Shown piece after piece: positions 1,046 to 63,789 of a stretch of 64,000 nt of DNA (its first letter is position 1; each line of letters begins with the position of its first letter). The notes under the pieces are model-generated. The model did no database searches, was not told the DNA's origin, and saw only the letters and a list, made by a program, of their open reading frames with translations. Origin of the DNA: Shinella pollutisoli (GTDB lineage: Bacteria > Pseudomonadota > Alphaproteobacteria > Rhizobiales > Rhizobiaceae); NCBI RefSeq assembly GCF_024609765.1, contig NZ_JANFDG010000004.1, positions 186,001 to 250,000 of the forward strand, read 5' to 3'. Made by a program: the position numbers and the translations under genes.

Positions 1046-4000
1046 CTATCCCTCGATCAGGGCGTTGAACGCGTCGATCGCGGTCTTCGCATAGGCGTCG
1101 GCGGCGAAGGGCCGGGCCTCGTAGCGGCCCTCCAGGAAGGCCAGCATGCCCCCGGCGAGCCCGGCGGCCGAATTCTCGACCAGCATCCCCTCGCCGTTCT
1201 CCAGAACGCTGCGGCAGCCGACGACGTCGGTCGAGATCACCGGCTTTGCGAGCACCAGCGCCTCCAAGAGGACGATGCCCTGCCCTTCGTGGTTGGAGCT
1301 CAGGACGAAGCAGTCCATCCGCGCGAAGACGGGCATGGGATTGTGCATCATGCCGGCGAGCAGGACCGCGTCCTGCAGGCCGAGCTCGCCGATCTGCCGC
1401 TGCAGCGCCTCGCGCATCGGCCCGTCGCCGACGATGACCAGCCGCGCCTGCGGCCAGGCGCGATGGACGTCGGCGAAGGCGAAGATCAGCTTCCTGTGAT
1501 CCTTCTCGAGCGAAAGCCGTCCGACCGTGGCGAAAAGCGTTCGTCCCTCCGCCCATTCGGCGATGTCCTCGCGCAGCGGTTCCCCGGCCCGCTCCCGCAG
1601 CGAGGCGGGCAGGATGACGTTTCCGACGATCCGGAACCTGTCGGGCGGCAGGCCGTAGGCCTGCGAGAGATTGGCCCTGTTCAGCGCATAGACGCTGGGT
1701 GACGGCGAGACCAGCTTGGCATAGTCGCGATAGAACTCGAAAACGCCGGCCAGGGCGGGAACGCGGGTCTTGCTTTCGCTGACCATGTCGTTGTGGAGAT
1801 AGATGATTCTGTCGGCCGGCGCCGGCGCCGCCGCGAACATCGCCGCCCAGAAGCGGGTGAACCCCTCGAAGTTCACCACCGCCTTCCAGCGCGCCGAGCC
1901 GAAGGTGCGCTCGAATTCCCCGCGCATCGCGGCCGTCAGCACGGCGCGCATCTCCTCCGACGGAATGACGCCCATCGCGTGAAAGCTCTCGTAGGCCCAG
2001 CGCTGTTCGTGGGTGAAGAGCGCAAGCCCCACCCGGCCGAGAACGTGCAGCGCGTCTGGAAGCTCCGCGAGCTTGGCCCTGTTGTCGGGTTTCGGCGCGA
2101 CGATGTTCGTGTCGATCGCGACGGATATGTCGTATTTCTCTGTCGGCAGTGAGCGCAGGAGATCGATGCAGGACGACGTGATGCCGTTGGGCGCGAAATG
2201 CCCGCCGAAGAACAGGAGCCGTTCCCTGTCGCTCCGGTAGCGCGTCACCAGGCGGCTTTCCTCGCCGCGGAAGAAGAAATCGGTCGCGCGCCTTGCCGAA
2301 AGGTCCTCCCGCGGATCGCCGGTTTCCGCCAGCTTGCCGGCGAAGGCCGATGCGACGTCGTTGCCGTGCATCAGCAGGTCGGACGCCTGCGCGTCGGGGC
2401 TTGCGACATGGGTGGCATGGAGGATGTTGCGCGCCATGTTGCGGTGACCCATGAAGCCGGGATCGGCCGCCGGCCCCTTTTCCCTCGCCGCCGCCGTGCT
2501 TCCGTCCCAGGCCAGCAGGTAGGATTGCTCCGGCCGCCGGGAGAAATAGGCCGGAAGGGGCGCGTTGCTGACGAGGTACCGCGCCTCGGCCAGATAGCGC
2601 AGATACCTGTCGCTTCCCTTCGCGACGAGGATCACGTCGGGCCGGCCGGCATGGGCAGGGGGAGGCGGCGCGTTCTTCGCGAGGCTCCACACATGCAGGA
2701 AGCCGGAGAAGCCCGGATGGTCCAGCAGATGCCCGAAGATCGCCAGGGGTTGGCCGCCCGCCGCTTCCCCGAGATCGCTCTCGTAGAGGATGACCTTCTC
2801 GCGGATCGCCAGGCGCTGGCGGTATTCGGCATAGTTCGCCACTGCCTTCTGGGTGGCGCTCGTCTCGAAGGGCCGCGTGTCGAATCCCACGGCGCTCCAG
2901 CGTATCCGCATCCCGCGGAAGGCTTCGCAGGCTTCGCCGAGGCGGCCCGTGCGGGCAAGCGCTTCGCCGAGCGTGCGGTAGATCGCCGGGGCGTGGGGGT
3001 TCGAGCGGTCGGCGGCGGCGCGGCAGGCATCGATGGCCAGCTCCGGCCTGCCGCCGTCGAGGGCGGCGCGGGCGAGATCGAGGAATTCCGTGGCGGTGCC
3101 GGACCCCGGCAGGATGTCGGGCAGCGGGACCGGCGGCCTTTCCGGCCTGCTTGCGTCGTCGCGCGAGGCACGATAGGCCTCGGCGGCCTCCTCCAGCCGC
3201 CCGCCTGCTCCAGGACATAGGCGAGGCGGAAGAGCCAGTAGGATTTCGTGCCGCCGTCCAGCGCGATCGCCGTCCGGTAGGCGGCGGCCGCATCGTCCCA
3301 GCGGTGCTGGCGCTCGCGGACGAAGCCGAGCCGGTAGTGCCACGGCGCCATGTCGTGCTGCAGGGCGATTGCGCGGCCGTAGCTCTGCTCGGCGAGCGGC
3401 CATCGGTAGCAGCGGTCATGGGCGAAGCCCAGCCGGTAATGCAGCTCGGCATCGTCGTCGCGGCCGGCGAGCGTTGTCGCCAGGGCCGGGGCGGCGAGAT
3501 GCCAGAGCTGCTCGCGGGCGTGATAGGCGCCGATGCCGAACCGCTGCGCCTTGAGGGATCGGTCGAGGGCGACGGTGCGCGCATAGGCCGCCCCGGCGGC
3601 CGTGCCTTCGCCGGACCGCTCCAGCGCCAGGCCGAGGCGATAGTGCCACTCGGCGTCGTCCGGCCTCAGCGCGATCGCCGACCGGTAGGCCTCGACGGCC
3701 GCGCCGAGACGTCCGAGCTTGTCGAGGGCCCTGGCGCGCCGGAACTGCCAGCCGGCATGGCCGTCCTCCAGGGCACAGGCGCGCTCCAGCGCCTCCGCCC
3801 CTTCCCGGTTCCGTTTCAGCCGATAGAGCGCCTCGGCCAGGAGATTGTGATAGTCGGCCGCATCCGCGGCAAGGTCGACGGCGGTCGCAAGCGCCTCGGC
3901 CGCCGATGCGTGGTCGCCGAACTCAAGCAGGCACCGGCCGCGCTCGCCGTGGAGCACCGCATCCTGCGGGCGAAGCCGGCATGCCTCGTCGAGCAGGGGC

Positions 4001-4179
4001 AGCGCCTCGCCGAACGCCTTCCGCCTGATCAGCAAGAAAGCGAGGTTCGCCAGGATGCCGGCATCCTGACGGCGCAAGCCGAGCGCTCGCCTGTATGCAG
4101 CTTCGGCTTTCGCCTTCGCCCCCTTGCGCTCGTAGAGCCTGCCCGCGGCGTTGAAAAAGTGGCCGGCGATCCCCTTCAT
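1046..4179 (-). pseudogene. TPR repeat / GT4 glycosyltransferase, one gene split by a frameshift
   Basis: Two overlapping minus-strand frames together make one protein of about 1045 residues. The first part (start at 4179, MKGIAGHFFNAAG) is a row of about eight tetratricopeptide repeats (for example ALGLRRQDAGILANLAFLL). The second part (to 1046) continues the repeats with LEEAAEAYRA. It then has a region of unknown fold and ends in a GT-B family 4 glycosyltransferase with TVGRLSLEKDHRKL, VIVGDGPMR and the donor-site motif NHEGQGIVLLEAL. The frames meet at the C-run 3200-3202, and one extra base there restores EQAGRLEEAAEAYRA. The gene is last in a run of minus-strand genes after wecC, so it probably adds a sugar of the ManNAcA-containing glycan. 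Either it is inactive or the base is a sequencing error. The sugar specificity cannot be read. Confidence 0.75.
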
Positions 4180-4277
4180 GCCCGATTGGCCTCGCATTGT
4201 CCCAACGGGCCTGGAACCCGCCCGCCACATGTCTTACCTGTCTTGTCCGTCATATCCGTGACGGACGCGCCGGAGCG

Positions 4278-5540
4278 TCAGCGTCCTGCCCAAACGCCGC
4301 GCGTATCGATGACGACGCCCTGCGGCTTCGGCATCGACTTGAAGCCGGAATGATCGACCAGCATGACATGGATGTCGGCGCCGGCACATTCCTCGGCGCT
4401 GGCGAGGCGGGCGTTTTCCAGGGTTTTCGGCAGGGCCGCGATATTCGGCTCGACCACCGCGATGGGCCGGGGAAGCATCCTCGCCAGTTCCGAGGCGATG
4501 GACAGCGCCGGGCTTTCCCGCAGGTCGTCGATATCCGGCTTGAAGGCGAGGCCGTAGACGGCGACTGTGAGGTCGCCGGCCGTGCGCCCGGGCTGGTCGA
4601 GCAGCGTGGCGGCGACTGCATTGCGGACCTTGTCCAGCACCCATTCCGGCTTGGCGTCGTTCACCTCGCGCGCGATGCGGATCAGACGGGCCGTGTCGGG
4701 CGCGCTCGAGACGATGAACCAGGGGTCGACCGCGATGCAGTGTCCGCCGACGCCGGGGCCGGGCTGGAGGATGTTCACGCGTGGGTGGCGGTTCGCCAGG
4801 CGGATCAGCTCCCACACGTCGATGCCGAGTCCGTCGCAGACCAGCGAGAGCTCGTTGGCGAAGGCGATGTTGACGTCGCGGAAGCTGTTTTCCGTCAGCT
4901 TGGCCAACTCGGCGGTGCGGGCATCGGTGAAGATGCAGCTTCCTGTCACGAAGAGCTTGTAGAGCTGTGCTGCGGTTTCCGAGCATTTCTGCGTCAGCCC
5001 GCCGATCAGGCGGTCGTTGGTGATGAGCTCCTGCATGACGCGGCCCGGCAGGACGCGCTCGGGGCAATGGGCGATGCGGATGTCGGAATCGGCGCCATGC
5101 GTGGCGGGGAACGTCAGGTCGGGGCGGGCCTCGGCGAGGATCTCGGCCATCCTCTCGGTCGCGCCGACCGGCGAGGTCGATTCCAGCACGACGAGGTTGC
5201 CGCGCGCCAGCACCGGCGCGATGGTCCGCGCGGCCGCCTCGACATAGCTGAGATCCGGCTGGCGGCCGGGGCCACGGAACGGGGTCGGGACCGCGATCAG
5301 GAAGCTGTCCGCGGGCTCGGGCACGGTCGTCGCGCGCAGCCAGCCCTCGGAGACGACGGAATGGACGGCGATGTCGAGATCCGGCTCGACGATGTGGATC
5401 TTGCCGGCATTGATCGCCTTGACCACGTCGGGGTTGACGTCGACGCCCACGACCTTGATGCGGCGCGAGGCAAACATCGCTGCCGTCGGCAGGCCGATAT
5501 AGCCGAGGCCGACGACGGAAATGGTCTGGTTCTGGGACAT
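4278..5540 (-). CDS. wecC: UDP-N-acetyl-D-mannosaminuronate dehydrogenase
   Basis: 420 residues, the usual length for this NAD-dependent nucleotide-sugar 6-dehydrogenase, which oxidises UDP-ManNAc to UDP-ManNAcA in the cytoplasm. The Rossmann start is VVGLGYIGLPTAAMFA. The central domain has VVLESTSPVGATERM, and AELAKLTENSFRDVNIAFANE holds the active-site lysine region. GPGVGGHCIAVDPWF contains the catalytic cysteine. The C-terminal UDP-binding domain has YGLAFKPDIDDLRESP. It lies 9 bases after wecB, so the two steps from UDP-GlcNAc to UDP-ManNAcA are translated together. The neighbours are glycosyltransferases, which fits use in a capsule or O-antigen rather than in enterobacterial common antigen. 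Assignment to the WecC branch rather than to UDP-glucose dehydrogenase is strongly supported by the wecB partner. Confidence 0.93.
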   Translation of the reverse strand: MSQNQTISVVGLGYIGLPTAAMFASRRIKVVGVDVNPDVVKAINAGKIHIVEPDLDIAVHSVVSEGWLRATTVPEPADSFLIAVPTPFRGPGRQPDLSYVEAAARTIAPVLARGNLVVLESTSPVGATERMAEILAEARPDLTFPATHGADSDIRIAHCPERVLPGRVMQELITNDRLIGGLTQKCSETAAQLYKLFVTGSCIFTDARTAELAKLTENSFRDVNIAFANELSLVCDGLGIDVWELIRLANRHPRVNILQPGPGVGGHCIAVDPWFIVSSAPDTARLIRIAREVNDAKPEWVLDKVRNAVAATLLDQPGRTAGDLTVAVYGLAFKPDIDDLRESPALSIASELARMLPRPIAVVEPNIAALPKTLENARLASAEECAGADIHVMLVDHSGFKSMPKPQGVVIDTRGVWAGR

Positions 5541-5549
5541 TTTTCTACT

Positions 5550-6701
5550 CTAGCGGCTGGATGATGTGGCGGAGGACGTGCGGCGCGCATGCCAGGCACG
5601 GATGAAGTCGACGATCCGTGCGGCCGCGTGGCCGTCTCCATAGGGATTGCGCGCGGCCGTGGCCGATGCGTCCGGCATTTCCACGTCCAGCATGTGCGCG
5701 ACGCGGGCGACAATGAGCTCCGTGTCCGTTCCGACGAGCTGGACGGTGCCGGCCTCGACGGCCTCCGGCCGTTCGGTCGTGTCGCGCATGACGAGCACGG
5801 GCTTTCCAAGCGAGGGGGCTTCCTCCTGCACACCGCCGGAATCGGTCAGGATGATGTCGGCGCGATTCATCAGGTACACGAAGGCGAGGTATTCCTGCGG
5901 CTCGATCAGCTTCACGCCGGGAAGGTGGCCGAGCAGGCGCTGGACCGGTTCCTTCACGTTGGGATTGAGATGCACCGGATAGACGATCTCCAGGTCCGGC
6001 CTTTCGGCAAGTTTCGCCAGCGCCGCGCAGATCCGCTCGAAGCCGAGGCCGAAGCTCTCGCGGCGGTGGCCGGTCACGAGCAGCAGCCGCTTGCCGGCGT
6101 CACGCGGAAACTGTTGTGCGAAGCGGTCGGCGAGCGACCGGTCCTCGTCGAACCGCCTCACCACCGATTTCAGGGCGTCGATCACCGTGTTGCCCGTGAC
6201 GAGGATCGTGTCGGCGGCGACGTTCTCGGCGAGGAGGTTTTCCCTGGCACGCGCCGTCGGGGCGAAATGAAGGTCCGCGATCGTGCCTACCACCTTCCGG
6301 TTGGCCTCCTCCGGCCAGGGCGAGCGGATGTCGCCGGTCCGCAGGCCCGCCTCGACGTGCCCGACCGGGATCTGTGCGTAGTAGGCTGCAAGCGAGCATG
6401 CGAACGTGGTCGTGGTGTCACCGTGGACGAGGACGATATCGGGCTGGAACTCGGCCAGGACCGGCTTCATCGCGACGATCGCTGCGGCGGTGAGGCCGAA
6501 CAGGTCCTGGCCCGGCCGCATCAGGTCGAGATCGAAGTCGGGCGTGATGCCGAAGAGCGCGAGCGCCTGATCGAGCATGTGCCGATGCTGCGCCGTGACG
6601 CAGACCTTCGCGACGACGCCGGGAGCCTCCTGCAACGCAAGCACCACCGGCGCCATCTTGATCGCCTCGGGGCGGGTTCCGAAAACGGACAGTACTTTCA
6701 T
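5550..6701 (-). CDS. wecB: UDP-N-acetylglucosamine 2-epimerase (non-hydrolysing)
   Basis: Interconverts UDP-GlcNAc and UDP-ManNAc. From the ATG at 6701 the protein is 383 residues and opens with [20 protein letters not shown], the classic WecB N-terminus. The frame extends upstream to 6791, but that extension has no family similarity. Other family marks are [54 protein letters not shown] and [18 protein letters not shown] with RDTTERPEA. It is the first of the wecB-wecC pair. A second, CapG-type 2-epimerase is present at 37-38 kb and serves a different sugar. Confidence 0.95.
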
Positions 6702-6809
6702 ATTGGATGCCTTATTCCACCTTGATACCGATTGGGAGATTGGCCGAGCAAATTCGCGGCGGACAATAGAGTTTTCAACCTCGGGCAGCAAGGCTGCGGT
6801 AAACGGACC

Positions 6810-7520
6810 TCAGCGCATCGTGATCTGACGGATCGTAGCCTCGTAGAGCGCCGGTACGTAATGGAAGGGGGAGATGCCCCATTTGTGTTCGGTATCCGCG
6901 ACCAGGGTCACCGGCTCGTATGTGAGGAAGCGAACATCCGGCCGGGTTTCAAGGATGTGATCGTATTGCTTCCTCAGATAACCATTCTCTACCTCGAAGG
7001 GAGCCTTCGGTAGCACATTCCCACTGCTGTCGCGGGAGGCATACCAGACCTGGTTGACGACGAGCTTGCCGATATTGCCCGTGTCGGACATGACGTCGAG
7101 CAGCTTGGCCCAGCCCTGCTTCCAGAGCTCCCATTTCTGGTTCGAATACGAGGGAATGACGCGCTCGCGGTCCCAGTCGCCCTCGACCTTCCGCAAGCCG
7201 GATGCATACTCGTTCGAAAGCGTATGGATGCTGCCGTCCTTGTCGAGAAGCAGGTTGAACCGATCGTCGATAAAATCCATGAGGAGCAGATCGAACGCGT
7301 TGCCACGGATCATATCCCAGAGTGCTTTCTCCATATCGGCGCGCACGATCCGGCGCTGGAACGGACTGCCGATCTGCTCGATGATGTCTTCCCGAACGGA
7401 CGGCAGCGTCACCTGCGATCCAAGGCTCGATCTGGCGAGGTAGTTGTCAAGCTGCACGATGCCTGTGCCGTACACGGCATCGGCGCTGACGCAACTTCCA
7501 AAGATAGACACTTTCAGCAT
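6810..7520 (-). CDS. DUF6270-like protein of the polysaccharide operon
   Basis: 236 residues. The start MLKVSIFGSCVSADAVYG carries the GSC motif at the N-terminus that marks the DUF6270 group, a set of SGNH-like proteins often found beside glycosyltransferases. Further on is LLLMDFIDDRFNLLLD, and the C-terminus has SPFHYVPALYEA, where an HY pair sits where a catalytic histidine might be. There is no signal peptide, so it should be cytoplasmic. It sits between wecB and an alpha/beta-hydrolase-like gene 24 bases upstream, with all genes in the same direction, so it is probably co-transcribed. A role in modifying the glycan or its precursor (acyl transfer or removal) is inference only. Confidence 0.6.
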   Translation of the reverse strand: MLKVSIFGSCVSADAVYGTGIVQLDNYLARSSLGSQVTLPSVREDIIEQIGSPFQRRIVRADMEKALWDMIRGNAFDLLLMDFIDDRFNLLLDKDGSIHTLSNEYASGLRKVEGDWDRERVIPSYSNQKWELWKQGWAKLLDVMSDTGNIGKLVVNQVWYASRDSSGNVLPKAPFEVENGYLRKQYDHILETRPDVRFLTYEPVTLVADTEHKWGISPFHYVPALYEATIRQITMR

Positions 7521-7544
7521 GACATCCTCCGGTCGGTGCAGCAG

Positions 7545-8801
7545 TCACACCAGGTCGGCAGACTCAACCTTGACCACATGTATGTTCGGTGCATTTTGTG
7601 CATGGCGAGCGAACACTACGACGGATAGTCTGGCTGGATTCTCGATCTCGGTGAGGAATGTTGTGTTTGCCTGAGAGGAGTACCAATTCACAGCGACCCG
7701 GGCACCGTCTTCCATCATGTAATACGCGTAGGATAGACCTTCAGGCGATCTGTCGACATCTACCGTAACGTGCACTCGTCCATCCTTGAAAATAGCGCGG
7801 GCACGCAAGTCATAGTCGGGATCCGGCTCCAGCTTAATTGTACTTTCCAGGATGCCCTGTAGCGCGTTGGGGACAAAATCTAGTGGATCCCTTTGTCCGG
7901 AATCCTGAGTGAGTAAAGCCACCATTGCCTTGACGAGGGCATTTGGCGGCACCGCGTGCCCGCTGCCCCAATTTCCGGTTCTGACGATTATTCTACGGTC
8001 GTGAGAAATCTTGGTCAGATGATCATAATCATGCCAGAGGCCGCAGCGGGCCAGAAAAGGCTCCATATGCTTCCCGACATGATGGTCGCTATCGTTTTGC
8101 AGGTAAACCAGACAGGACGGAGCCTTATAACTCGCAGAACAAACATCCTGATCGACACCGGCTGCAACGAGAATATCTCGAAGAGAGTCGTTCTGCTTGG
8201 CATTGGAAATAGCTACATCTATATATTTTTGTACAATATCCGCGTTATATTCGGCGATCTGGGTTTGCGGATTCCAGACTAGCCCCCTTGCCGGCATCGC
8301 CATGTAGCGCATCGTGCTAATGGTAGCGAAGCCGCCGCCAGACCCCCCGATCAGAACCGGAATGCGGCCAGTGACATTTGAGACGTAGTCGATTACACGC
8401 GCAACATTGCGCGGATGATCGAAGCCGCCTTCTCCCCCCGCGTACCACGCGAGGGTGACGGCGCGGCTGGCGCTGACAACGGGATCGGCAAACGCCAGAA
8501 GCGGCATTTTCAAGCTACGTGACAAGTTGATGCCAGAGAATAGCGGCGCCGCAATCGCCGAGCGGTTTGTCATCGCGCCGGAAAATCCAACCAAGAAGAA
8601 ATCGGCCTCAGGTAGGCTCCCTGGCCCTGCATTCTCCAGTTTGAACTCTACTTTTCCCAGACCGTCGCCAATACGAATGATTCCACTGGAAGGAAGCTTG
8701 TCAGCAAGAAAAGCCTCGATTGTCGTATAATCAAAAACGTCAGTTTTCCAGATGCTTACATCATAGGAGGGAATTTCGGCTGTAGAGATGGGGTCAGCCA
8801 T
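7545..8801 (-). CDS. Alpha/beta-hydrolase-like protein in polysaccharide operon
   Basis: 418 residues with no signal peptide or membrane segment. The centre has PVLIGGSGGGFATISTMRYM, a GxSxGG nucleophile elbow, and GSGHAVPPNALV looks like the catalytic histidine loop; together they suggest a serine hydrolase or acyltransferase fold. The C-terminal 110 residues (from about RAIFKDGRVHVTVDVD) look like a separate beta-rich domain. Base composition is clearly more AT-rich than in wecB and wecC, which suggests a separate origin within the operon. It lies 24 bases before the DUF6270-like gene, so the two may act together. I do not recognise a named family and the substrate is unknown; acetylation or deacetylation of the sugar chain is a guess. 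Confidence 0.5.
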   Translation of the reverse strand: MADPISTAEIPSYDVSIWKTDVFDYTTIEAFLADKLPSSGIIRIGDGLGKVEFKLENAGPGSLPEADFFLVGFSGAMTNRSAIAAPLFSGINLSRSLKMPLLAFADPVVSASRAVTLAWYAGGEGGFDHPRNVARVIDYVSNVTGRIPVLIGGSGGGFATISTMRYMAMPARGLVWNPQTQIAEYNADIVQKYIDVAISNAKQNDSLRDILVAAGVDQDVCSASYKAPSCLVYLQNDSDHHVGKHMEPFLARCGLWHDYDHLTKISHDRRIIVRTGNWGSGHAVPPNALVKAMVALLTQDSGQRDPLDFVPNALQGILESTIKLEPDPDYDLRARAIFKDGRVHVTVDVDRSPEGLSYAYYMMEDGARVAVNWYSSQANTTFLTEIENPARLSVVVFARHAQNAPNIHVVKVESADLV

Positions 8802-52248: not shown

Positions 52249-53109
52249 TCACATCCCATGCGACCCGTCATAGCCGTTGACGGGCGGCGGGGTCCAGCCT
52301 TCCGGCCGGCGCGGGGCCCTGTAGACCTCCACCAGCATCGGATGGCAGACGGCGGCGTCGGAGGAATGCTCCGACGAGCAGTCGCCGCCGGGGCAGGCGG
52401 ACATGCAGGCGAGGAGGTCGATCTCGGCGAAGAATTCGAGATAGTCGCCGGGGCGCACCGGGCTCGCCTTCATGAAATACTGGCCCGTGTCGCGGGTGAA
52501 GCCTGTGCACATGAAGACGTTGAGCACGTCGTGGACATGGGCGGCGGCCGCCTCCCTCGGCATGCCGGTGTGGTTCGCCAGCGCCCGGGTGAGGTTGGAA
52601 TGGCAGCAATGGTGGTACTGGCCGCCATGGCTGAGCAGGTTGTGCGTGTAGGGGTCGCAGCGCGTGCCGATGACGTCGTGCACCGAGCCGCCGAATTCGT
52701 CGAAGCCGTACCAGTCGAGCGTGTCGTGGGTGATGGTGGCGATCGGCCGCATGTAGGGGAAGGAGGAGAAGAGCTGGTCGCCGAGGCCGACATGGGTGCC
52801 GGAGAGCGCGCGCGTCTTGCCGCTGTAGAAGCGTTCCGAAAGGTCGTGCAGGTTGAACAGGTTGAGGTCGCCCACCTGCGGGCCCTCGCTGCAGACGAGG
52901 CGGCAGAAATGGCCGGCCGGCACCTGCCAGGCGGCCGCCTCGCGCGGCGGCACGGTGACGGTCTCGACGAGCTCCAGGTCGTCGCGCAGCGCCCGGTAGG
53001 CGGAAAGGTCCGGGCGCGGCAGGCTTTCCACCGGATAGCAGACGACGGGCTTCACCGCCTTGCGCGCGGCGGCATCGGCCGGGGCCTCGGTGATGGGGGC
53101 TGGTTTCAT
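52249..53109 (-). CDS. DUF1989 (urea carboxylase-associated) protein
   Basis: 286 residues from the ATG at 53109. Marks of the family are VTVPPREAAAWQVPAGHFCR, QVGDLNLFNLHDLSERFYS, YGFDEFGGSVHDVIGTRCDP, HCCHSNLTRALANHTGMP and CMSACPGGDCSSEHSSD. Histidine- and cysteine-rich blocks suggest a metal site. DUF1989 proteins come in pairs beside urea/guanidine carboxylases, where they act as carboxyguanidine deiminase, and singly elsewhere. Here a single copy lies downstream of the biotin carboxylase gene in the same direction, separated by repeats, so a link to that pathway is plausible but unproven. Confidence 0.8.
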   Translation of the reverse strand: MKPAPITEAPADAAARKAVKPVVCYPVESLPRPDLSAYRALRDDLELVETVTVPPREAAAWQVPAGHFCRLVCSEGPQVGDLNLFNLHDLSERFYSGKTRALSGTHVGLGDQLFSSFPYMRPIATITHDTLDWYGFDEFGGSVHDVIGTRCDPYTHNLLSHGGQYHHCCHSNLTRALANHTGMPREAAAAHVHDVLNVFMCTGFTRDTGQYFMKASPVRPGDYLEFFAEIDLLACMSACPGGDCSSEHSSDAAVCHPMLVEVYRAPRRPEGWTPPPVNGYDGSHGM

Positions 53110-53165: not shown

Positions 53166-53311
53166 TTTCCCTTCTCCCCGTCGGGGAGAAGGGGCCCGAA
53201 GGGCGGATGAGGGTGTGAAACACGGCTTGGCGATCATGATTTCGCCTGCGGCGCCCCCTCATCCCGCTGCCGCGACCTTCTTCCCGACGGGGAGAAGGGG
53301 CAAGAAGCGCC
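53166..53311. repeat. Paired RIME-like palindromic elements
   Basis: Same design as the pair at 52 kb: CCCTTCTCCCCGTCGGGGAG with CCCGAAGGGCGGATGAGGG, then the opposing CCCCCTCATCCCGCTG unit ending GACGGGGAGAAGGGG. They separate the DUF1989 gene from the biotin carboxylase operon and may attenuate transcription between them. Confidence 0.8.
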
Positions 53312-53358: not shown

Positions 53359-55062
53359 TCACTCAACCACCGCCAGCTCTGCCCCGAGCGCCACGGTCCT
53401 GCCGGCCTCGGCGGCGATGCGCAGGCGGCCGGCCTTCGGCGCGAGCACGCGGGTCTCCATCTTCATCGCCTCGATCAGCGCCACGGCCTCGCCTTTGGCG
53501 ACCTCCGCCCCGTCCGCGACCAGCCATTGCTGCAGCGTGCCGGGGATCGGCGCCGTCACCGCGCCCGGCCGCTCGGCGGGGCCTTGCGACGGCTGCGCGG
53601 CGGAGAGGCCGGAGAAGAGCGCGGCGGGCAGGCCGAGCCGGTGGCGGCGGCCGTCGATCTCGACGAAGGTAGAAAGAAGCCCGCCCTCGGCCGGATCGAC
53701 GCGCGGGGCAGGGGGGACGCCCGCAAATTCCGTCTCGATCCAGTTCGTGTAGACGGAAAAGCCGTCCTCGCCGGTGAAGGCCGGTTCCGCGAGCACCGCG
53801 CGGTGGAAGGGCAGCACCGAGGCGATGCCCTCGATGACGAATTCGCCGAGCGCGCGCCGGGCGCGGGCGAGCGCCACCTCCCGCGTCGGCCCGCTGACGA
53901 TCAGCTTCGCCATCAGCGAATCGTAGAGGCCGGGGATCTCCGAACCCGCCTCCACGCCGCTGTCGAGCCGCACGCCCGGCCCCGACGGCGGACGGAAGCG
54001 GGTGATGCGGCCGGGCGTCGGCAGGAAGCCGCGGCCGGGGTCCTCGGCATTGATGCGGAATTCGAAGGCGTGGCCGCGCGGCTCCGGCGTCTCCGTGAGC
54101 GCCAGCGGCAGGCCGTCGGCGATGCGCAGCTGCTCGACGACGATGTCGAGGCCGGTCGTCTCCTCCGTGACGGGATGCTCGACCTGCAGGCGCGTGTTCA
54201 CCTCCAGGAAGGAGAGGACGCCCCCCTCCGACAGCAGGAACTCCACCGTGCCCGCCCCGACATAGCCGGCGGCCGCGCAGATGGCGCGGGCGGCCTCGTG
54301 GATGCGGGTGCGGGTCGTGCCGTCGAGGAAGGGGGCGGGGGCCTCCTCGACGAGCTTCTGGTTGCGCCGCTGCAGCGAGCAGTCGCGGGTGCCGAGGACG
54401 AGGGTGTTGCCGTGCCCGTCGGCCAGCACCTGCGCCTCGATGTGGCGCGGCCGGTCGAGGAACTGCTCGGCATAGCATTCGCCGCGGCCGAAGGCCTCCG
54501 TCGCCTCGCGCACGGCCGAATCGAAGAGCTCGCCGACCTCCTCCAGCCTCCGCGCCACCTTCATGCCGCGCCCGCCGCCGCCGAAGGCGGCCTTGATGGC
54601 GAGCGGCAGGCCGGCCTCCTTCGCGAAGGCGACGGCGTCCGCCGCCGTGGCGAGCGGCCCGTCCGAGCCCCTGACCAGCGGTGCGCCGACGCCGGCCGCG
54701 ATGCGCCGCGCCTCGACCTTGTCGCCGAGCGCGGCGATGACGGCGGGCGGCGGCCCGACCCAGGTGAGGCCGGCATCGATCACGGCCTTCGCGAATTCCG
54801 CCCGCTCCGACAGGAAGCCGTAGCCGGGATGGACGGCGTCGGCCCCGGCGCGGCGGGCGATGTCGAGGATCCTGCCGATGTCCAGATAGGTGTCGGCCGG
54901 GCGGCCGGGGCCGAGCCCGTAGGCCTCGTCGGCGGCCTCCGCATGGAGCGCGCCGGCATCGTCGTCGGAATAGACCGCCACGGAGGCGACGCCGTAGTCG
55001 CGCGCGGCGCGGGCGATGCGCACGGCGATCTCGCCGCGGTTGGCGATGAGCAGTTTCTTCAT
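53359..55062 (-). CDS. Biotin carboxylase fused to biotin carboxyl carrier domain
   Basis: 567 residues. Residues 1-450 are biotin carboxylase: [37 protein letters not shown], then [20 protein letters not shown] (ATP-grasp loop), [20 protein letters not shown] and [16 protein letters not shown]. The last 80 residues are the biotinyl domain with the biotin lysine in [20 protein letters not shown]. It carboxylates its own biotin using ATP and bicarbonate. No normal carboxyltransferase gene is near; instead it overlaps (ATGA) the pxpBC gene, whose product resembles the carboxyltransferase half of urea carboxylase. Family certain; substrate of the complex unknown. Confidence 0.93.
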
Positions 55063-56702
55063 CGGTCGGTTTCCCGGATGAGAGGACGGAAGGCGGTGAG
55101 CGCGTTGAAGCGGATCCGCGCGCCGATCGGGATCTGGCCGGCGAGGCCGAGATGGTGGCTCGCGACGACGCCGATCACCGGATAGCCGCCGGTCAGCGGA
55201 TGGTCGGCGAGGAAGAGCACCGGCTGGCCGCTGTGCGGCACCTGGATCGCCCCGCGCGGCGTGCCCTCGGAGGGCAGCTCGGCGGCGTCGTGCCGCTCGA
55301 GCGGCCGGCTGCCGGCAAGGCGCATGCCGACGCGGCTCGATTCGGCCGTCACCTCCCAGTCCTGCGCGGCGAGCGTCTCCACGCCCCTGTCGGTGAACCA
55401 GTCGGTGCGCGGGCCGGGCACGATGTCGAGCGTCACCGTCTCGCCCGCCTTCGGCAGCCTTGCGGGCGCCGGGCGGAAGGGATCGACGGCGACGGCGCGG
55501 CCCTCCGCCGGCATGAGCACGTCGCCCGCGGTAACCGGCGCGGGGCCGATCTTCGCCAGCGTATCCGTCGACGCCGAGCCCAGCACCGGCGCGACCGCGA
55601 AGCCGCCGCGCAGCGCCAGGTAGCTGCGCATGCCCTCCGGCGGCAGGCCGAGCGTCAGCTCGTCGCCCGCGTCGAGCGCGAAGGGCCGGCCGGAGGGGAC
55701 GGCGACGGTGCGGCCGCCGGCGGTGCGGATCGCGAGCGGGCAGGGGGCGCCGGCGACGGCGAGCGTGACCGGCCGGTCCGCCCTCAGCGCGAAGCCGCCG
55801 AAGGCGATCTCCAGCGCCGCCGTCCCGGGCGGGTTGCCGACGGCGAGATTGGCCTCGGCGAGGCTGTCGCGGTCGAGCGCGCCGGATTCCGCCACGCCCT
55901 GGTCGGCCCGGCCGGGGCGGCCGCGGTCCTGGAACAGGGCCGGGCGGTCGGTGCGGGTGACGCGGAGGCCGCCGGCGGGCCGGCCATCCCCCTCCGGCCT
56001 GCCTGCCGCCTCCTCCTGAACGGGGGAGATCGGCCGGGGGCGGGGCGGGGTGGGCCGGAGGGAGGTGCTTTTCTCCAATGCCGCCATATCGCGGAACCGC
56101 ACCCGGTCGCCGGGGGCGAGCAGGGCGGGGCGGAAGCGGCTCGTGTCCCACATCGCAAGCGGCGTGCGGCCGAGGAGCTGCCAGCCGCCGGGGCTGTCGG
56201 AGGGATAGATGCCGGAGAATGGCCCGGCGATGGCGACGGAGCCCGCCGGGATGCGCACGCGCGGGCTCTTGCGGCGCGGCACGTCGAAGCCGGGATCGTC
56301 GGAGGTCATGTAGGCGAAGCCCGGCGCGAAGCCGGTGAAGGCGACGGTATGGGTCGCCGCGGTGTGGCGGCGGATCACCTCCTCCACCGTCCAGCCGAGG
56401 ATTTCCGCGACGTCGGCGAGGTCCTCGCCGTCGTAGACGACGGGGATGTCGAAGGTCTCGCCGACGCGCGCGCGCCGCTCGGAGAGGTCGAGGGCGGCGA
56501 TCCCGTCCGCGAGCCGGGCGGGGCCGGTGACGCGCGGGTCGAAGCGCACCATCAGCGTGCGCGCGGCCGGCACCAGCTCGGCGACGCCCTCCGGCCGGGC
56601 GGCGGAAAGCGCGTCGAACAGCGCCAGCGTCGCCTCGAGATCGTCGAGCTCGACCAGGACGGCGTCGCTGCCGGCCGGCAGGAAGCGCAGCCGCTCAGCC
56701 AT
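55059..56702 (-). CDS. PxpB-PxpC fusion (5-oxoprolinase / urea-carboxylase CT-like)
   Basis: 547 residues from the ATG at 56702. The N-terminal half is PxpB (AHS1/KipI): [60 protein letters not shown] and [21 protein letters not shown] proline-rich linker (about 235-260) joins PxpC (AHS2/KipA): [40 protein letters not shown] and [18 protein letters not shown]. coli PxpB and PxpC are separate; fusion is common elsewhere. With PxpA it opens 5-oxoproline to glutamate using ATP. Both halves are homologous to the carboxyltransferase of urea carboxylase. It overlaps pxpA upstream and the biotin carboxylase downstream. Confidence 0.9.
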
Positions 56703-57459
56703 GGACGAAGGGTTGCAGCGCGACGCCCTCCGCGGAAAGCGCCTCGCGCAGCGTCCTCGCGATGGCGACGGCGGCCGGCGTGTCGCCGTGGATGCAGATC
56801 GACTGCGCCTCGAGCGCGATCTCGCTGCCGTCGATCGCCGTGATGCGGCCCTCCGTGACGAGGCGCAGCATGCGGTCCGCGACCGCCTGCGGATCGTGGA
56901 TGACGGCGCCCGGCAGCCTGCGGCTGACGAGCGAGCCGTCGGCATTGTAGGCGCGGTCGGCGAAGGCCTCGCAGACGACGGTGAGCCCCGCCGCGCGCGC
57001 CTGCGCGACGATCGGCGCGCCGGAAAGCGCCATCAGCACGAGCGCGGGGTCGACCGCCCTGATGCCGGCGATCACGTCGGCGGCCTGGCGGGCGTCGTTC
57101 GCGATGGTGTTGTAGAGCGCGCCGTGCGGCTTGACGTAGCGGACCCGCGTGCCGGCCGCCGTCGCCAGGCCCTGGAGCGCGCCGATCTGGTAGATCGTGT
57201 CGGCGACAAGCTCGGCGCTCGACGGGTCCATGTCGCGCCGGCCGAAGCCGACGAGGTCGCGGTAGCCGACATGGGCGCCGACCGCCACACCGCGCTCCGC
57301 CGCCGCCTTCAGCACGGAGAGGATGCCCGCCGGGTCGCCGGCGTGGAAGCCGCAGGCGATGTTGGCGCTGGTGACGATCGACAGCATCGACACGTCGTCG
57401 CCCATCGGCCAGGGGCCGAAACTCTCGCCGAGATCGCTGTTGAGGTCGATGCTTGCCAT
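56695..57459 (-). CDS. pxpA: 5-oxoprolinase subunit PxpA (LamB/YcsF family)
   Basis: 254 residues from the ATG at 57459 ([20 protein letters not shown]); the open frame to 57525 adds residues not found in the family. Marks are [78 protein letters not shown] and [11 protein letters not shown], with many histidines and aspartates of the metal/active site. It is the first gene of the operon and overlaps pxpBC by eight bases. Its promoter faces a divergent GntR gene. Confidence 0.93.
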
Positions 57460-57759
57460 GGCCGCGTCCTTCGTGATGGATTCCGCTTGGAATTGTTGGA
57501 TAACACGGATATGATTGTTCAACAATATGGCCGGGTGAAAAATACCGAAGGGACCGGATATGATGATGCATGCGCCGCCGCACGCCCCTCTGCCCTGCCG
57601 GGCATCTCCCCCTCAGGCCGGGAGATCGATCGGGGCACTGCCTTGCCCGTCGCCGGGGGTGCGGCTTGAGCACGGTTTCCGCTTCTTGCCGGTCTGCCCC
57701 CTTGAGGGGGAGATGCCCGGCAGGGCAGAGGGGGGCATGCCGGCCCCGGCCGCCGCCGC
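57460..57759. promoter_or_regulatory. pxpA / gntR divergent control region
   Basis: 300 bases. An exact palindrome ATTGTTCAACAAT lies at 57514-57526, and a related half-site pair TTGTTGGATAACA lies at 57493-57505. This short AT-rich stretch is 35-70 bases before the pxpA start and is the likely binding site of the divergent FCD-type GntR protein. The rest is filled by two opposing copies of a CTCTGCCC/GGGCAGAG repeat. Confidence 0.6.
57585..57735. repeat. Opposed palindromic repeats, second family
   Basis: CCCCTCTGCCCTGCCGGGCA followed by TCTCCCCCTCA, and the opposite copy TTGAGGGGGAGATGCCCGGC followed by AGGGCAGAGGGGG. The same core forms the terminator-like palindrome at 22953-22983. The second copy runs to within 25 bases of the gntR start, so it probably lies in the gntR leader. 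Confidence 0.7.
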
Positions 57760-58428
57760 ATGACCGCGCGCGACGGCGGCCGGCCGCTCTCCGAGCGCGT
57801 GGCGGGCGAGATCCGCGACGGGCTGATCGCCGGGCGGTTCGCGCCGGGCGAGCGGCTGTCGGAGCACGAGGTGGCCGCCCGCTACGGCATCTCGCGCAAC
57901 ACGCTGCGCGAGGTCTTCCGCCTGCTGACGAGCCAGGGCCTACTTGCCCATATCCCCAACCGCGGCGTCTTCGTCGCCTCGCCGGATGCGGCGGCCGTGC
58001 TCGACATCTACCGCGCCCGCCGCGTTATCCAGCGGGGCGCGGTGGAGGCCGCCGTGCCCGGCCACCCGGCCTTCTCGCGCATGGCGGCGCTGGTCGCGGA
58101 CGGCGAGGAGGGGCAGGCGCGCGGCGACTGGCAGCGGGTCGGCACGGCCAACATGGCGTTCCACCGCGCCATGGTGGAGCTCTGCGACAGCCCGCGCCTC
58201 TCCGCCTGCTTCGACCTCATCCTCGCCGAGCTGCGCCTCGTCTTCGGCCGGCTGGAGGACACCGCCCACCTGCACGCGCCCTATGTCGCGCTCAACGCCG
58301 CCCTGCTCGTCCGCCTGCAGGCCGGCGACCGTGCCGCCGCGCTCGCCGGCCTCGACGCCTATCTCACCCGCTCCGAGCGCTCCGTGCTCGCCGCCCTCCA
58401 GCGCGGGAAGGCGGCGGAGCGCTCCTGA
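57760..58428 (+). CDS. GntR-family (FCD/FadR) transcriptional regulator
   Basis: 222 residues. The N-terminal winged helix has GEIRDGLIAGRFAPGERLSE and HEVAARYGISRNTLREVFRL, then LTSQGLLAHIPNRGVFVASP. The all-helical FCD ligand domain follows (VLDIYRARRVIQRGAVEAAV; ANMAFHRAMVELCDSPRL with the metal/ligand histidine). Divergent from pxpA and close to the palindrome at 57514. It is the likely local regulator of the pxp operon, sensing a carboxylate intermediate. The nearby repeats in its leader may affect its level. Confidence 0.9.
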   Translation: MTARDGGRPLSERVAGEIRDGLIAGRFAPGERLSEHEVAARYGISRNTLREVFRLLTSQGLLAHIPNRGVFVASPDAAAVLDIYRARRVIQRGAVEAAVPGHPAFSRMAALVADGEEGQARGDWQRVGTANMAFHRAMVELCDSPRLSACFDLILAELRLVFGRLEDTAHLHAPYVALNAALLVRLQAGDRAAALAGLDAYLTRSERSVLAALQRGKAAERS

Positions 58429-61390: not shown

Positions 61391-62707
61391 TCAGCGCGCC
61401 CGCAGCACGTCGTCCAGCGCCGCGACCAGCGTGTCGGCATTCTCGCGGGAGAAGACGAGGGGAGGGCGGATCTTCAGCACGTTGGCGCGTGGGCCCGCCG
61501 CGCTGATCAGCACCCGGCGGTCGCGCAGGCCGTTGACGATGCGGGTGGTCAGTGCCGCGTCGGCGCGCTTCTCGGCCCGGTCGGAGACGATCTCGACGCC
61601 GACGAAGAGGCCCGCGCCGCGCACGTCGCCGATGGCGGCATGCCGGCCGGCGAGGTCTTTCAGCCCGTCCGCGAGATGGCGGCCGACCTGCAGCGCGTTT
61701 TCCTGCAGCCCTTCCTCGCGGATCGTGTCGAGCACGGCTCGGCCGGCGGCGGCGGCGACGGGGTTGCCGCCGAAGGTGTTGAAGTAGCGGGCGTTCGGGC
61801 CGAAACCGGCGATCACCTCGGGCCTGAGCACGAGGCCCGCCATCGGATAGCCGTTGCCCATCGGCTTGCCGAGCGTGACCATGTCGGGCGAGACGCCGTG
61901 GCGCTCGAAGCCCCACATCGCCTCGCCGGTGCGGCCGAAGCCCGGCTGCACCTCGTCGGCGACGAAGAGGCCGCCCGCCGCATGGATCGCCTCGACCGCC
62001 GGCTTCAGGAAGCCTTCGGGCCCGGCGAAGATGCCGTCGCTGGAGAAGATCGAGTCGGCGATCAGCATGGCCGGCCGGATGCCGTGGCGCTTCAGGTCGG
62101 CGATGGCGGCGGCGACGTCGCGGCCGAACCGCTCCATCGCCTCGCCGGGCGCGCCGCGGTAGCTGTCGGGCGCGGGCACGGTGCGCACGTGCGGCCCCAG
62201 CGTCACCGCGTCGCCGAGCGAGGGCGAGAACTCGGCGACCGCGCCCGTCAGCCCGTGATAGGCGAGCTCGGTGGCGATGATGCCCGTGCCGCCGGTGACG
62301 TAGCGGGCGATGCGGACGGCGAGGTCGTTCGCCTCGCTGCCGGTGCAGGTGAACATCGCCTGGGCGAGGCCCGCGGGGAAGGTCGCCGTCAGCGCCTCGG
62401 CATAGTCGACGATGCCCTCGTGCAGGTAGCGCGTGTGGGTGTTGAGGATCGCCGTCTGCCGCGTGATCGCCTCGACCACGCGCGGATGGCAATGGCCGAG
62501 CGAGGCGACGTTGTTGTAGGCGTCGAGATACCTCTCGCCCGCCGCGTCGTAGAGGAAGACGCCCTCGCCGCGCACCAGATGCAGCGGCCGCTCGTAGAAC
62601 AGCCGGTAGGCGGGGCCGAGCACCTTCTCGCGCCGGGCGATCAGCGCCCGGTCGGCGGCGTCGAGCCGCTCGAAATCCTCGCTCGTGAACGCATTCACCA
62701 TCGACAT
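61391..62707 (-). CDS. Class III PLP aminotransferase (phospholyase-like)
   Basis: 438 residues. Marks are YLDAYNNVASLGHCHPRVVE, ILNTHTRYLHEGIVDYAEAL, FTCTGSEANDLAVRIARYVT, LFVADEVQPGFGRTGEAMWG and the PLP-lysine loop VTLGKPMGNGYPMAGLVL. The pattern NNVASLGHCHP and HTRYLH is that of the ethanolamine-phosphate and 5-phosphohydroxylysine phospholyase group rather than of plain GABA aminotransferase. It lies four bases before the end of an APH-fold kinase gene on the same strand, a pairing that fits kinase plus phospholyase. Ordinary transamination of an omega-amino acid is the alternative. Confidence 0.85.
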   Translation of the reverse strand: MSMVNAFTSEDFERLDAADRALIARREKVLGPAYRLFYERPLHLVRGEGVFLYDAAGERYLDAYNNVASLGHCHPRVVEAITRQTAILNTHTRYLHEGIVDYAEALTATFPAGLAQAMFTCTGSEANDLAVRIARYVTGGTGIIATELAYHGLTGAVAEFSPSLGDAVTLGPHVRTVPAPDSYRGAPGEAMERFGRDVAAAIADLKRHGIRPAMLIADSIFSSDGIFAGPEGFLKPAVEAIHAAGGLFVADEVQPGFGRTGEAMWGFERHGVSPDMVTLGKPMGNGYPMAGLVLRPEVIAGFGPNARYFNTFGGNPVAAAAGRAVLDTIREEGLQENALQVGRHLADGLKDLAGRHAAIGDVRGAGLFVGVEIVSDRAEKRADAALTTRIVNGLRDRRVLISAAGPRANVLKIRPPLVFSRENADTLVAALDDVLRAR

Positions 62708-62711
62708 GGGA

Positions 62712-63755
62712 TCAGGCCTCCGCGGGGTTGGGCGCGAGCCGCTTCAGGCCCGCCGCCGTCAGGTCGGCGATGTTGCGCAGGCCCGCCCAGGCGGCGGCGT
62801 GGTTGCGCATGATGTAGGCGCGGTTCTCCGGAAAGCGCGCCGAGCGCCATTCCGCGACGATGATCGACATGGCGAGCCGCGCCCGGACGAGCACCGGCAG
62901 CACGGCGAGCTCCGGCTCGAGCAGCGGGCGGGCGGACAGGAAGCCCTCGAGATAGGCGCCCGCGCGCGCCGCCCAGTCCTCCGTCGCCAGGTGATAGGAG
63001 AGGCCGACGGCGAGGTCGTTGACCATCGGCGCGCGCACCATGTCGCCGAAGTCGATGATGCCGACGACGCTGTCGGGGGCTGCGGGATCGACGAGGATGT
63101 TGTGCGGGTTGAAGTCGTTGTGGATGATCTGGCGCCGCTCCAGCGCCGCAATCGCCGGCAGGGTCCGCTCGAATTCGGCGAGGACCGCCTCGGCCTGCCC
63201 GCGCCGCTCGGGCGCGACGTGGTCCACCACCGCGACGAGGTCGAGCGTGTGCGAGATGTCCCACATCAGCTTGCCGGCGGGCGGCTGCCCGTCATAGCCG
63301 GACAGGCCGAGGCCGAGGGCGGCGAGCGCCCGGCCGACGGCGCGGCTCTGCGCGAGCGCGGGCGGCGTGCGGTATTGCAGCTCGCCCGGCAGGAAGGTGA
63401 GCAGGCGCACGATGCGCGGCCCGTCGACGGTCGCAAGCGCATGGCTGTGCCCGCCGCCCCGCGTCGGCACGATGCGCGGCACCGGCACGGCCGGCGCGTG
63501 GCGTTCGAGGTGGAGGAGCGCGCCGTCCTGGAAGTCGAGCGCGGCCGGGTCCTCCGCCGGATTGGCGATCTTCAGCGTGTACCGCGCGCCGTCGGCGGCG
63601 GAAAACAGGAAGGTCTCGTCGCGCTCGCTCGACAGGCGCTTCGCCGTTCCCTCGATGCCGTAGACCGCGGCGACGGCCGCCGCCGCTCCCGCAAGCGACG
63701 TCTCGCTCCAGGACGCCGACATGGCGTCGCCGCGTCCCGCCGTCTCTTCCGTCAT
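62712..63755 (-). CDS. Hydroxylysine kinase-like APH-fold phosphotransferase
   Basis: 347 residues from the ATG at 63755, with GGAG upstream. The kinase shows YTLKIANPAEDPAALDFQDG (ATP-lysine), VRLLTFLPGELQYRTPPALA, the catalytic Brenner motif QIIHNDFNPHNILVDPAAPD and the metal-binding GIIDFGDMVRAPMVNDLAVG. This set matches hydroxylysine kinase (AGPHD1-like) and other small-molecule kinases in the aminoglycoside phosphotransferase superfamily. Together with the next gene it could phosphorylate a hydroxy-amine and then eliminate phosphate and ammonia. An antibiotic-resistance role is unlikely from context. Confidence 0.82.
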   Translation of the reverse strand: MTEETAGRGDAMSASWSETSLAGAAAAVAAVYGIEGTAKRLSSERDETFLFSAADGARYTLKIANPAEDPAALDFQDGALLHLERHAPAVPVPRIVPTRGGGHSHALATVDGPRIVRLLTFLPGELQYRTPPALAQSRAVGRALAALGLGLSGYDGQPPAGKLMWDISHTLDLVAVVDHVAPERRGQAEAVLAEFERTLPAIAALERRQIIHNDFNPHNILVDPAAPDSVVGIIDFGDMVRAPMVNDLAVGLSYHLATEDWAARAGAYLEGFLSARPLLEPELAVLPVLVRARLAMSIIVAEWRSARFPENRAYIMRNHAAAWAGLRNIADLTAAGLKRLAPNPAEA

Positions 63756-63789
63756 GGTGTCTCCGTTGCCCGCGTGGCCTGGCGACAAG

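Follow-up and report, generated by a model that had tools for sequence, protein, structure and literature searches.

Does an operon for a lactam-opening PxpABC enzyme make use of biotin when it carries a biotin carboxylase gene of its own? The question is raised by a 64,000-nucleotide stretch of the Shinella pollutisoli genome (hereafter the window), which lies on contig C34 of an assembly of 5.2 Mb in 79 contigs. The operon in question consists of pxpA, a pxpB-pxpC fusion (PxpBC) and a gene for a biotin carboxylase joined to a biotin carboxyl carrier protein (BC-BCCP); we call the arrangement pxpA, then PxpBC, then BC-BCCP type III. On balance, we suggest from the sequences that the three proteins of the operon make up a biotin-dependent lactam amidohydrolase, whose substrate is most likely 5-oxoproline or a closely related compound. 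The parts of the operon belong to families already known; their coupling is a conserved variation, of which no description was found in the literature searched.

The operon and its parts are as follows.

56695 to 57459, minus strand: pxpA, LamB/YcsF protein of 254 amino acids, presumed metal-dependent lactam hydrolase (PF03746, 336.9 bits).
55059 to 56702, minus strand: pxpB-pxpC fusion, 547 amino acids, carboxyltransferase-type protein with CT_C_D followed by CT_A_B.
56118 to 56687, minus strand: PxpB (CT_C_D) domain, residues 6-195 of the fusion (Pfam PF02682, 215.6 bits).
56274 to 56276, minus strand: codon of Arg143, placed by alignments at the position of the urea carboxylase general base Lys1605.
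55104 to 55898, minus strand: PxpC (CT_A_B) domain, residues 269-533 of the fusion (Pfam PF02626, 276.2 bits).
53359 to 55062, minus strand: biotin carboxylase-BCCP gene, 567 amino acids, AccA3-like by Pfam, PDB sequence matches and tree.
53734 to 55062, minus strand: biotin carboxylase part, residues 1-443, active-site set complete.
53368 to 53559, minus strand: BCCP domain, residues 502-565 (PF00364, 46.7 bits).
53461 to 53463, minus strand: codon of Lys534, the biotin-accepting lysine by its motif (EAMKM).

A preliminary description, made from the sequence alone, had given this gene order; its coordinates are exact, the three genes lie on the minus strand, and both junctions are as it stated: pxpA and pxpBC overlap by 8 bases (56695-56702), pxpBC and the BC-BCCP gene by 4 bases (55059-55062). 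The biotin lysine that it had recognized in EAMKM is K534, and the kinship that it had drawn between PxpB/PxpC and the carboxyltransferase half of urea carboxylase is supported by the Pfam domains and by structural matches. PxpA scores well above the cut-off of the LamB/YcsF profile NF003814 (379.8 bits against 226), and its N7, D9, E12, H39, D68, R74, H112, D168, H224 and D226 are 100% conserved over 78 PxpA rows. PxpBC scores above the cut-off of TIGR00724 (236.1 against 230.2) and below the curated PxpB/PxpC equivalog cut-offs of TIGR00370 (130.7 against 145.55) and NF045499 (170.3 against 500). Its structure model (pLDDT 84.9) finds TTHA0988, Msmeg0435-0436, YbgJK, urea carboxylase and the PDB entry 9yx5, discussed below, among its Foldseek matches. 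BC-BCCP contains Biotin_carb_N, CPSase_L_D2, Biotin_carb_C and Biotin_lipoyl, and the sole Pfam ATP-binding domain in the three proteins is located in the biotin carboxylase. The ten residues that we take to form the AccC active site (K116, K159, H209, K238, E276, E288, N290, R292, E296 and R338, in AccC numbering set on the Pluralibacter AccC) are all present. The biotinyl-lysine motif is retained in all 30 proteins compared, that of the window and 29 type III relatives, as EAMKM in 28 and as EAMKA and DAMKM in one each. Judged by these residues, the BC-BCCP of the window looks functional.

The arrangement is not due to chance. A scan with the single PxpBC protein against one genome per species (84,980 species), which detects close relatives only, yielded 22 loci, mostly from Rhizobiales, with Paracoccus, Pluralibacter and two Promicromonospora. 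The preliminary description had proposed counting the co-occurrence of the four parts across genomes as a check; 22 of these 22 close relatives keep the parts and the order, with PxpBC and BC-BCCP in one frame each, and the pair is conserved across several families and two phyla. The overlap of pxpA and pxpBC amounts to 8 bases in 13 of the 22 loci and some overlap exists in 20 (starts chosen automatically), the exceptions being a gap of 4 bases in L020 and one of 780 bases with an extra gene between in L036. The fusion is about 110 residues short in L037 (a 427-residue frame) and has insertions in L038; both are single-frame. In every type III locus examined pxpA was found.

Linkage of pxp genes to a biotin carboxylase is also widespread beyond these close relatives. 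An even sample of 120 Pseudomonadota genomes contains 34 with PF02626 matches, 48 matches in total: 14 urea carboxylase-length frames, 3 of the S. pollutisoli genome itself and 31 others. A biotin carboxylase is present in the fetched stretch for 11 of these 31, in 6 as type III (including L076, where pxpB and pxpC are separate genes) and in 5 as a separate accC. Among 149 Actinomycetota genomes 34 have matches, and 35 loci were fetched; four frames of urea carboxylase length and the type III locus of Promicromonospora, which was already included, were left aside. Four of the 35 resemble urea carboxylase without its biotin carboxylase (BC) domain, and a biotin carboxylase is present in 10 of the remaining 31, in 1 as type III and in 9 as a separate accC. 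In these counts, lack of a biotin carboxylase means no match above 100 bits in the fetched stretch of about 19 kb or less, and short contigs such as L098, L139, L141, L148 and L171 may hide one. The S. pollutisoli genome, 5.2 Mb in size, encodes 8 biotin carboxylases, and each of its three pxpC genes lies within 3 kb of one. In the trees the linkage recurs in further pxp lineages.

Both halves of the operon have relatives in one mycobacterial complex. We note that the PDB entry 9yx5, to go by its title and chain names, is a Mycobacterium smegmatis acyl-CoA carboxylase complex "with MSMEG_0435-MSMEG_0436 bound" and includes AccA3; no paper describing it was found in the literature searched. MSMEG_0435 and MSMEG_0436 are homologues of PxpC and PxpB, and the respective chains of 9yx5 rank third and fourth among 11 PDB relatives of the window PxpBC. 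The best PDB sequences for the window BC-BCCP are two at 678 bits, namely AccA3/alpha3 of entries including 9yx5 and the chain of 5mlk, which we take to be AccA3; the next one scores 445. In a quick tree of biotin carboxylases (50 rows, no bootstrap, eight near-duplicate type III loci dropped) 22 type III rows and the Promicromonospora AccA3 form one 23-row clade with a support of 100 in the Shimodaira-Hasegawa-like approximate likelihood ratio test (SH-aLRT), AccA3 being nested inside it. The window BC-BCCP is 57% identical to this AccA3 over 588 columns and, in the biotin carboxylase part, 43-50% identical to the five biotin carboxylases of the same genome that lack linkage to pxp genes.

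PxpC gives a similar picture. In a careful tree of 45 rows (44 chosen from the 89 of a quick tree, and MSMEG_0435, with the outgroup set by hand) a single clade (100/99) holds all 17 type III rows. This clade joins 14 actinobacterial PxpCs and MSMEG_0435 in a larger group of 32 rows (100/99), which stands apart from E. coli PxpC, the urea carboxylases and the accC-linked forms (outgroup). The wider quick tree, made without L097, L098, L171, L172, L173 and the too short L037, agrees with a 44-row group of support 99. The rows nearest to the PxpC of the window are from Rhizobiaceae. Since BC-BCCP clades with AccA3 and PxpC groups with MSMEG_0435, both operon halves share the background of the 9yx5 pair. 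PxpBC and BC-BCCP thus appear to belong together, as judged by the conserved operons (22 of 22), the shared phylogenetic background and 9yx5.

In the inventory of the genome no better partner for BC-BCCP stands out. There are four PF01039 matches, on C1, C2, C23 and C5. The genes on C1 and C2 adjoin their own biotin carboxylases, and the matches on C23 and C5, which cover the profile partially, are presumed to be accD and accA. A PF01039 beta subunit beside the window BC-BCCP was not found on C34 in this whole-genome inventory. From it, a distant carboxyltransferase was judged unlikely as the partner. Of the 8 biotin carboxylases, one on C7, which is accompanied by a BCCP, has no adjacent carboxyltransferase and remains unexplained.

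We suggest the following mechanism.

Step 1: From ATP and bicarbonate, BC-BCCP would form carboxybiotin on Lys534.

Step 2: In a complex that we infer to form in S. pollutisoli, the biotin arm would swing into PxpBC, where the carboxyl would be moved to the lactam amide, presumably activating the ring carbonyl.

Step 3: The putative activated lactam would be hydrolysed by PxpA.

Step 4: The N-carboxy amino acid would lose CO2 to give the free amino acid, which would be glutamate if the substrate is 5-oxoproline. Because CO2 is released at this step, bicarbonate would serve as a recycled activator.

The features next to the operon in the window are the following.

57515 to 57525, no strand assigned: palindrome TTGTTCAACAA, candidate operator, 56-66 bases upstream of pxpA.
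57760 to 58428, plus strand: GntR/FCD regulator, divergent from pxpA (PF00392 and PF07729).
52249 to 53109, minus strand: gene of a DUF1989 protein (PF09347), accessory, of the rhizobial branch.

The substrate is suggested by genes near related operons. Of 29 type III loci, 5 have an NRAMP homologue nearby and 4 a D-glutamate cyclase gene (PF07286), and in addition both are present in the plasmid-collection loci L182, L183 and L185. L182 from a Klebsiella plasmid and L185 from a Shinella plasmid hold the whole set of GntR gene, NRAMP transporter, pxpA, D-glutamate cyclase family gene, pxpBC and BC-BCCP. In Corynebacterium glutamicum, as given in the accessible part of one report, growth on 5-oxoproline depends on the NRAMP-family transporter PxpT and on PxpABC, and the GntR repressor binds this compound (PMC13274462). 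These neighbours, together with the pxpTABC cluster, therefore favour 5-oxoproline as the substrate; for the window operon itself, this assignment is less certain.

The type III arrangement is thus found on a plasmid of Klebsiella as well, and PxpBC matches of about 50% identity are listed for four more plasmids from this genus. On that first plasmid, positions 339-3329 of L182 hold a GntR gene, a DUF1989 gene and a second, shorter BC-BCCP frame by IS1, beside the complete type III operon.

Several points weigh against a biotin-dependent 5-oxoprolinase. NRAMP and D-glutamate cyclase genes were not found near the loci of the rhizobial branch to which the window belongs, save L184, which has a D-glutamate cyclase relative about 5 kb upstream; L022, L023, L025 and L037 hold less than 1.5 kb upstream, and absence of GntR or NRAMP there means little. 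The binding of MSMEG_0435-0436 in 9yx5 could be regulatory or could be to another subunit. PxpA, PxpB and PxpC of Bacillus subtilis reportedly reconstitute 5-oxoprolinase in vitro. Co-purified PxpB and PxpC are said to hydrolyse ATP, in the accessible part of a paper that cites other work for it (PMC8453981). The C. glutamicum cluster consists of pxpTABC and pxpR, and the word "carboxylase" is absent from the text of the report as far as it is accessible (PMC13274462).

The last of these points concerns the carboxyl transfer itself. In the Kluyveromyces lactis urea amidolyase, Lys1605 probably serves as the general base, and the enzyme is strongly impaired by the K1605A substitution, according to the part of the study available (PMC5770610). 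By PDB alignment this residue is the Lys of TKYNPSR. All 30 type III proteins have Arg at the position (Arg143 in the window PxpBC), so that urea carboxylase cannot serve as the model for the transfer step. Arg is also found in the unlinked PxpBs, in 15 of 15 of the actinobacterial group and in 21 of 22 others, of which the sole exception, L148 on a short contig, has Lys and branches beside the Lys-bearing linked class. All 15 proteins of urea carboxylase type (12 of full length and 3 lacking the BC domain) have Lys at the position, as do 9 of 16 accC-linked PxpBs. The S. pollutisoli genome holds both kinds, Arg in the window and Lys in the pxp loci on C21 and C3. The carboxyl acceptor site of type III therefore differs, whatever its substrate.

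Next to the reading that we favour, we consider it possible, at a distinctly lower probability, that the same biotin-dependent machine acts in rhizobia on some other cyclic amide or amidine-bearing compound, with the DUF1989 protein processing the N-carboxylated product. DUF1989 accompanies 12 of 28 type III loci, and the copy in the window is the only one in the genome; with the other 16 loci it was not found, and it is thus dispensable for the core reaction. We take the published carboxyguanidine deiminases to be DUF1989/UAAP proteins. Proteins annotated for urea metabolism have proved to be such deiminases, as stated in the accessible part of the respective paper (PMC12186494). However, the DUF1989 protein of the window stays far under the UAAP cut-offs (46.8 against 284.7 bits). 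A full-length solved relative of it is 3di4; its predicted structure (pLDDT 58.6) was set aside as too poor for a structure search. Near 11 of 28 type III loci there is an ABC-transporter cluster whose representative is of polar-amino-acid type, which is a weak hint, as genes of this kind are frequent. Most of the rhizobial branch has no PxpT-like or D-glutamate cyclase gene nearby. Since this branch mostly lacks these neighbours and has DUF1989 and the transporter cluster instead, the substrate of the window operon may have changed. The branch (20-21 rows) is also set apart from the 9 other type III rows by six columns of PxpA, one of PxpB and one of PxpC, but none of these eight belongs to the residues with a conservation of at least 90% across all classes.

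With a similarly low probability, the operon may encode an ordinary biotin-free PxpABC 5-oxoprolinase, BC-BCCP being a passenger, a regulator or a second alpha subunit for acyl-CoA carboxylases encoded elsewhere in the genome. Such an enzyme would fit the Arg shared with the unlinked PxpABC, the ATP hydrolysis ascribed to PxpBC and the reported reconstitution in B. subtilis, and AccA3, in the accessible part of PMC11001197, is a subunit common to several acyl-CoA carboxylase complexes. Against it stand the conservation of the pair in 22 of 22 loci and the recurrence of the linkage in other pxp lineages; the four PF01039 matches are accounted for by their own biotin carboxylases or as presumed accA and accD, and 9yx5 has the PxpBC homologues on an AccA3 complex. 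The likelihoods that we give to the favoured biotin-dependent 5-oxoprolinase and to these two alternatives overlap, since a close analogue of 5-oxoproline and another cyclic amide grade into each other.

A broader proposal, which we regard as rather unlikely, is that all PxpABC 5-oxoprolinases are biotin enzymes, served in trans by the housekeeping AccBC/AccA3 where the operon has no biotin carboxylase. PxpBC, which has no ATP site recognized by Pfam, would then act on the lactam amide as a carboxyltransferase in every case, and the M. smegmatis complex hints at such service in trans. The window operon would then be the version in which a hidden subunit is made visible.

A split urea carboxylase, as the preliminary description had read the operon, or another carboxylase of urea/guanidine type is very improbable and was rejected: the shared carboxyltransferase (CT) domains, the structural match to the K. 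lactis urea carboxylase and the DUF1989 gene nearby are outweighed by Arg in place of Lys1605 in 30 of 30 type III proteins, by scores of 494.9 and 144.8 for the two proteins of the window against the TIGR02712 (urea carboxylase) cut-off of 1303.85, by the highly supported branching of PxpC apart from urea carboxylases and by pxpA in all type III loci examined. What stands of that interpretation is a carboxyltransferase-type PxpBC and an apparently functional BC-BCCP that are apparently paired.

Two further observations were made. The actinobacterial urea carboxylase-like proteins of L142, L151, L156 and L160 are frames of 640-793 residues with the CT domains present and no biotin carboxylase match in the fetched stretch, and may borrow a housekeeping one. 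Of the BCCP and biotin carboxylase on C7 of S. pollutisoli (L179, at about 5816-7998), the biotin carboxylase groups with that of the pxp locus L083.

The biotin-dependent 5-oxoprolinase that we propose may be compared with the known systems. The operon has all three subunits of the PxpABC 5-oxoprolinase (E. coli YbgJKL, B. subtilis YcsF/KipI/KipA, C. glutamicum pxpTABC), and several type III loci also have an NRAMP transporter, a D-glutamate cyclase family gene and a GntR regulator nearby. Unlike in these systems, PxpB and PxpC of type III are fused (except in L076), a dedicated BC-BCCP is encoded directly behind them, and PxpC lies in a clade apart from that of E. coli. The AccA3 complex of M. 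smegmatis in 9yx5 combines a homologous carboxyltransferase pair with a homologous BC-BCCP; however, its alpha subunit is shared by acyl-CoA carboxylases, whereas that of the window is encoded within the pxp operon. Urea carboxylase (K. lactis 3va7, 5i8i) uses the same BC, BCCP and CT_A_B/CT_C_D modules, with an amide nitrogen as the likely acceptor; the window operon differs in its separate chains, in the Arg for Lys1605 and in the additional lactamase-type PxpA. The ATP-dependent caprolactamase CapAB and the OplA-type 5-oxoprolinase share the ATP-driven lactam opening, but belong to the hydantoinase/oxoprolinase family, unlike the proteins of the operon. Caprolactamase CapAB needs bicarbonate and is not similar to the prokaryotic PxpABC 5-oxoprolinases, as the accessible part of its description says (PMC8453981).

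No description of a biotin-dependent PxpABC was found in the literature searched, which excluded most subscription journals, nor was wet-lab evidence on carboxylation or substrate of this operon found there. In public annotation, relatives of PxpC already go by "biotin-dependent carboxyltransferase family protein", and "urea amidolyase family protein" is the name given to the type III protein; the kinship is therefore known to annotators. For the way in which PxpABC couples ATP to ring opening no explanation was found in the same literature, and an operon with its own biotin carboxylase makes lactam activation by a biotin-borne carboxyl testable with three proteins. If the proposal is true, lactams join the substrates of biotin enzymes, and genes annotated merely as urea amidolyase family or biotin carboxylase domain proteins are given a role. 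In Pseudomonas protegens, mutations in pxpA, pxpB and pxpC lower attachment to plant roots, as reported in the accessible part of PMC13390462.

The divergent GntR regulator probably controls the operon through the candidate site TTGTTSAACAA. This palindrome is present in 13 of 23 upstream regions, that of the window and 12 others, where it starts 59-70 bases ahead of pxpA; 11 of these 12 loci have a GntR homologue, and in L028 the palindrome is present and no GntR gene was detected. The motif has one match in the window and none in 100 shuffles, and its 13-base form occurs a single time in the whole genome. Of 28 type III loci, 17 have a GntR homologue; for some of the 28 the available upstream sequence is short.

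Dispersed palindromes of the CCTTCTCCCCGNCGGGGAGAAGG type are located at 53166-53310 and at six more places between 52073 and 63893. They are intergenic, often in facing pairs, and two of them separate the BC-BCCP gene from the DUF1989 gene. An Rfam scan of the window found no family at gathering scores.

Another pxp locus of the genome, L015 (C3:44000-63000), has pxpB, pxpC, an APH-type kinase, a class-III aminotransferase and accC in a row, with pxpA about 6 kb off and adjoined by a GroEL-like protein of 482 residues (3431-4876). Its kinase and aminotransferase resemble the two ends of PRK06148. The window also holds, at 61391-63788, a class-III aminotransferase (62707-61391) beside an APH-type kinase frame (63788-62712), which match parts of PRK06148, and this pair recurs in the C3 pxp locus.

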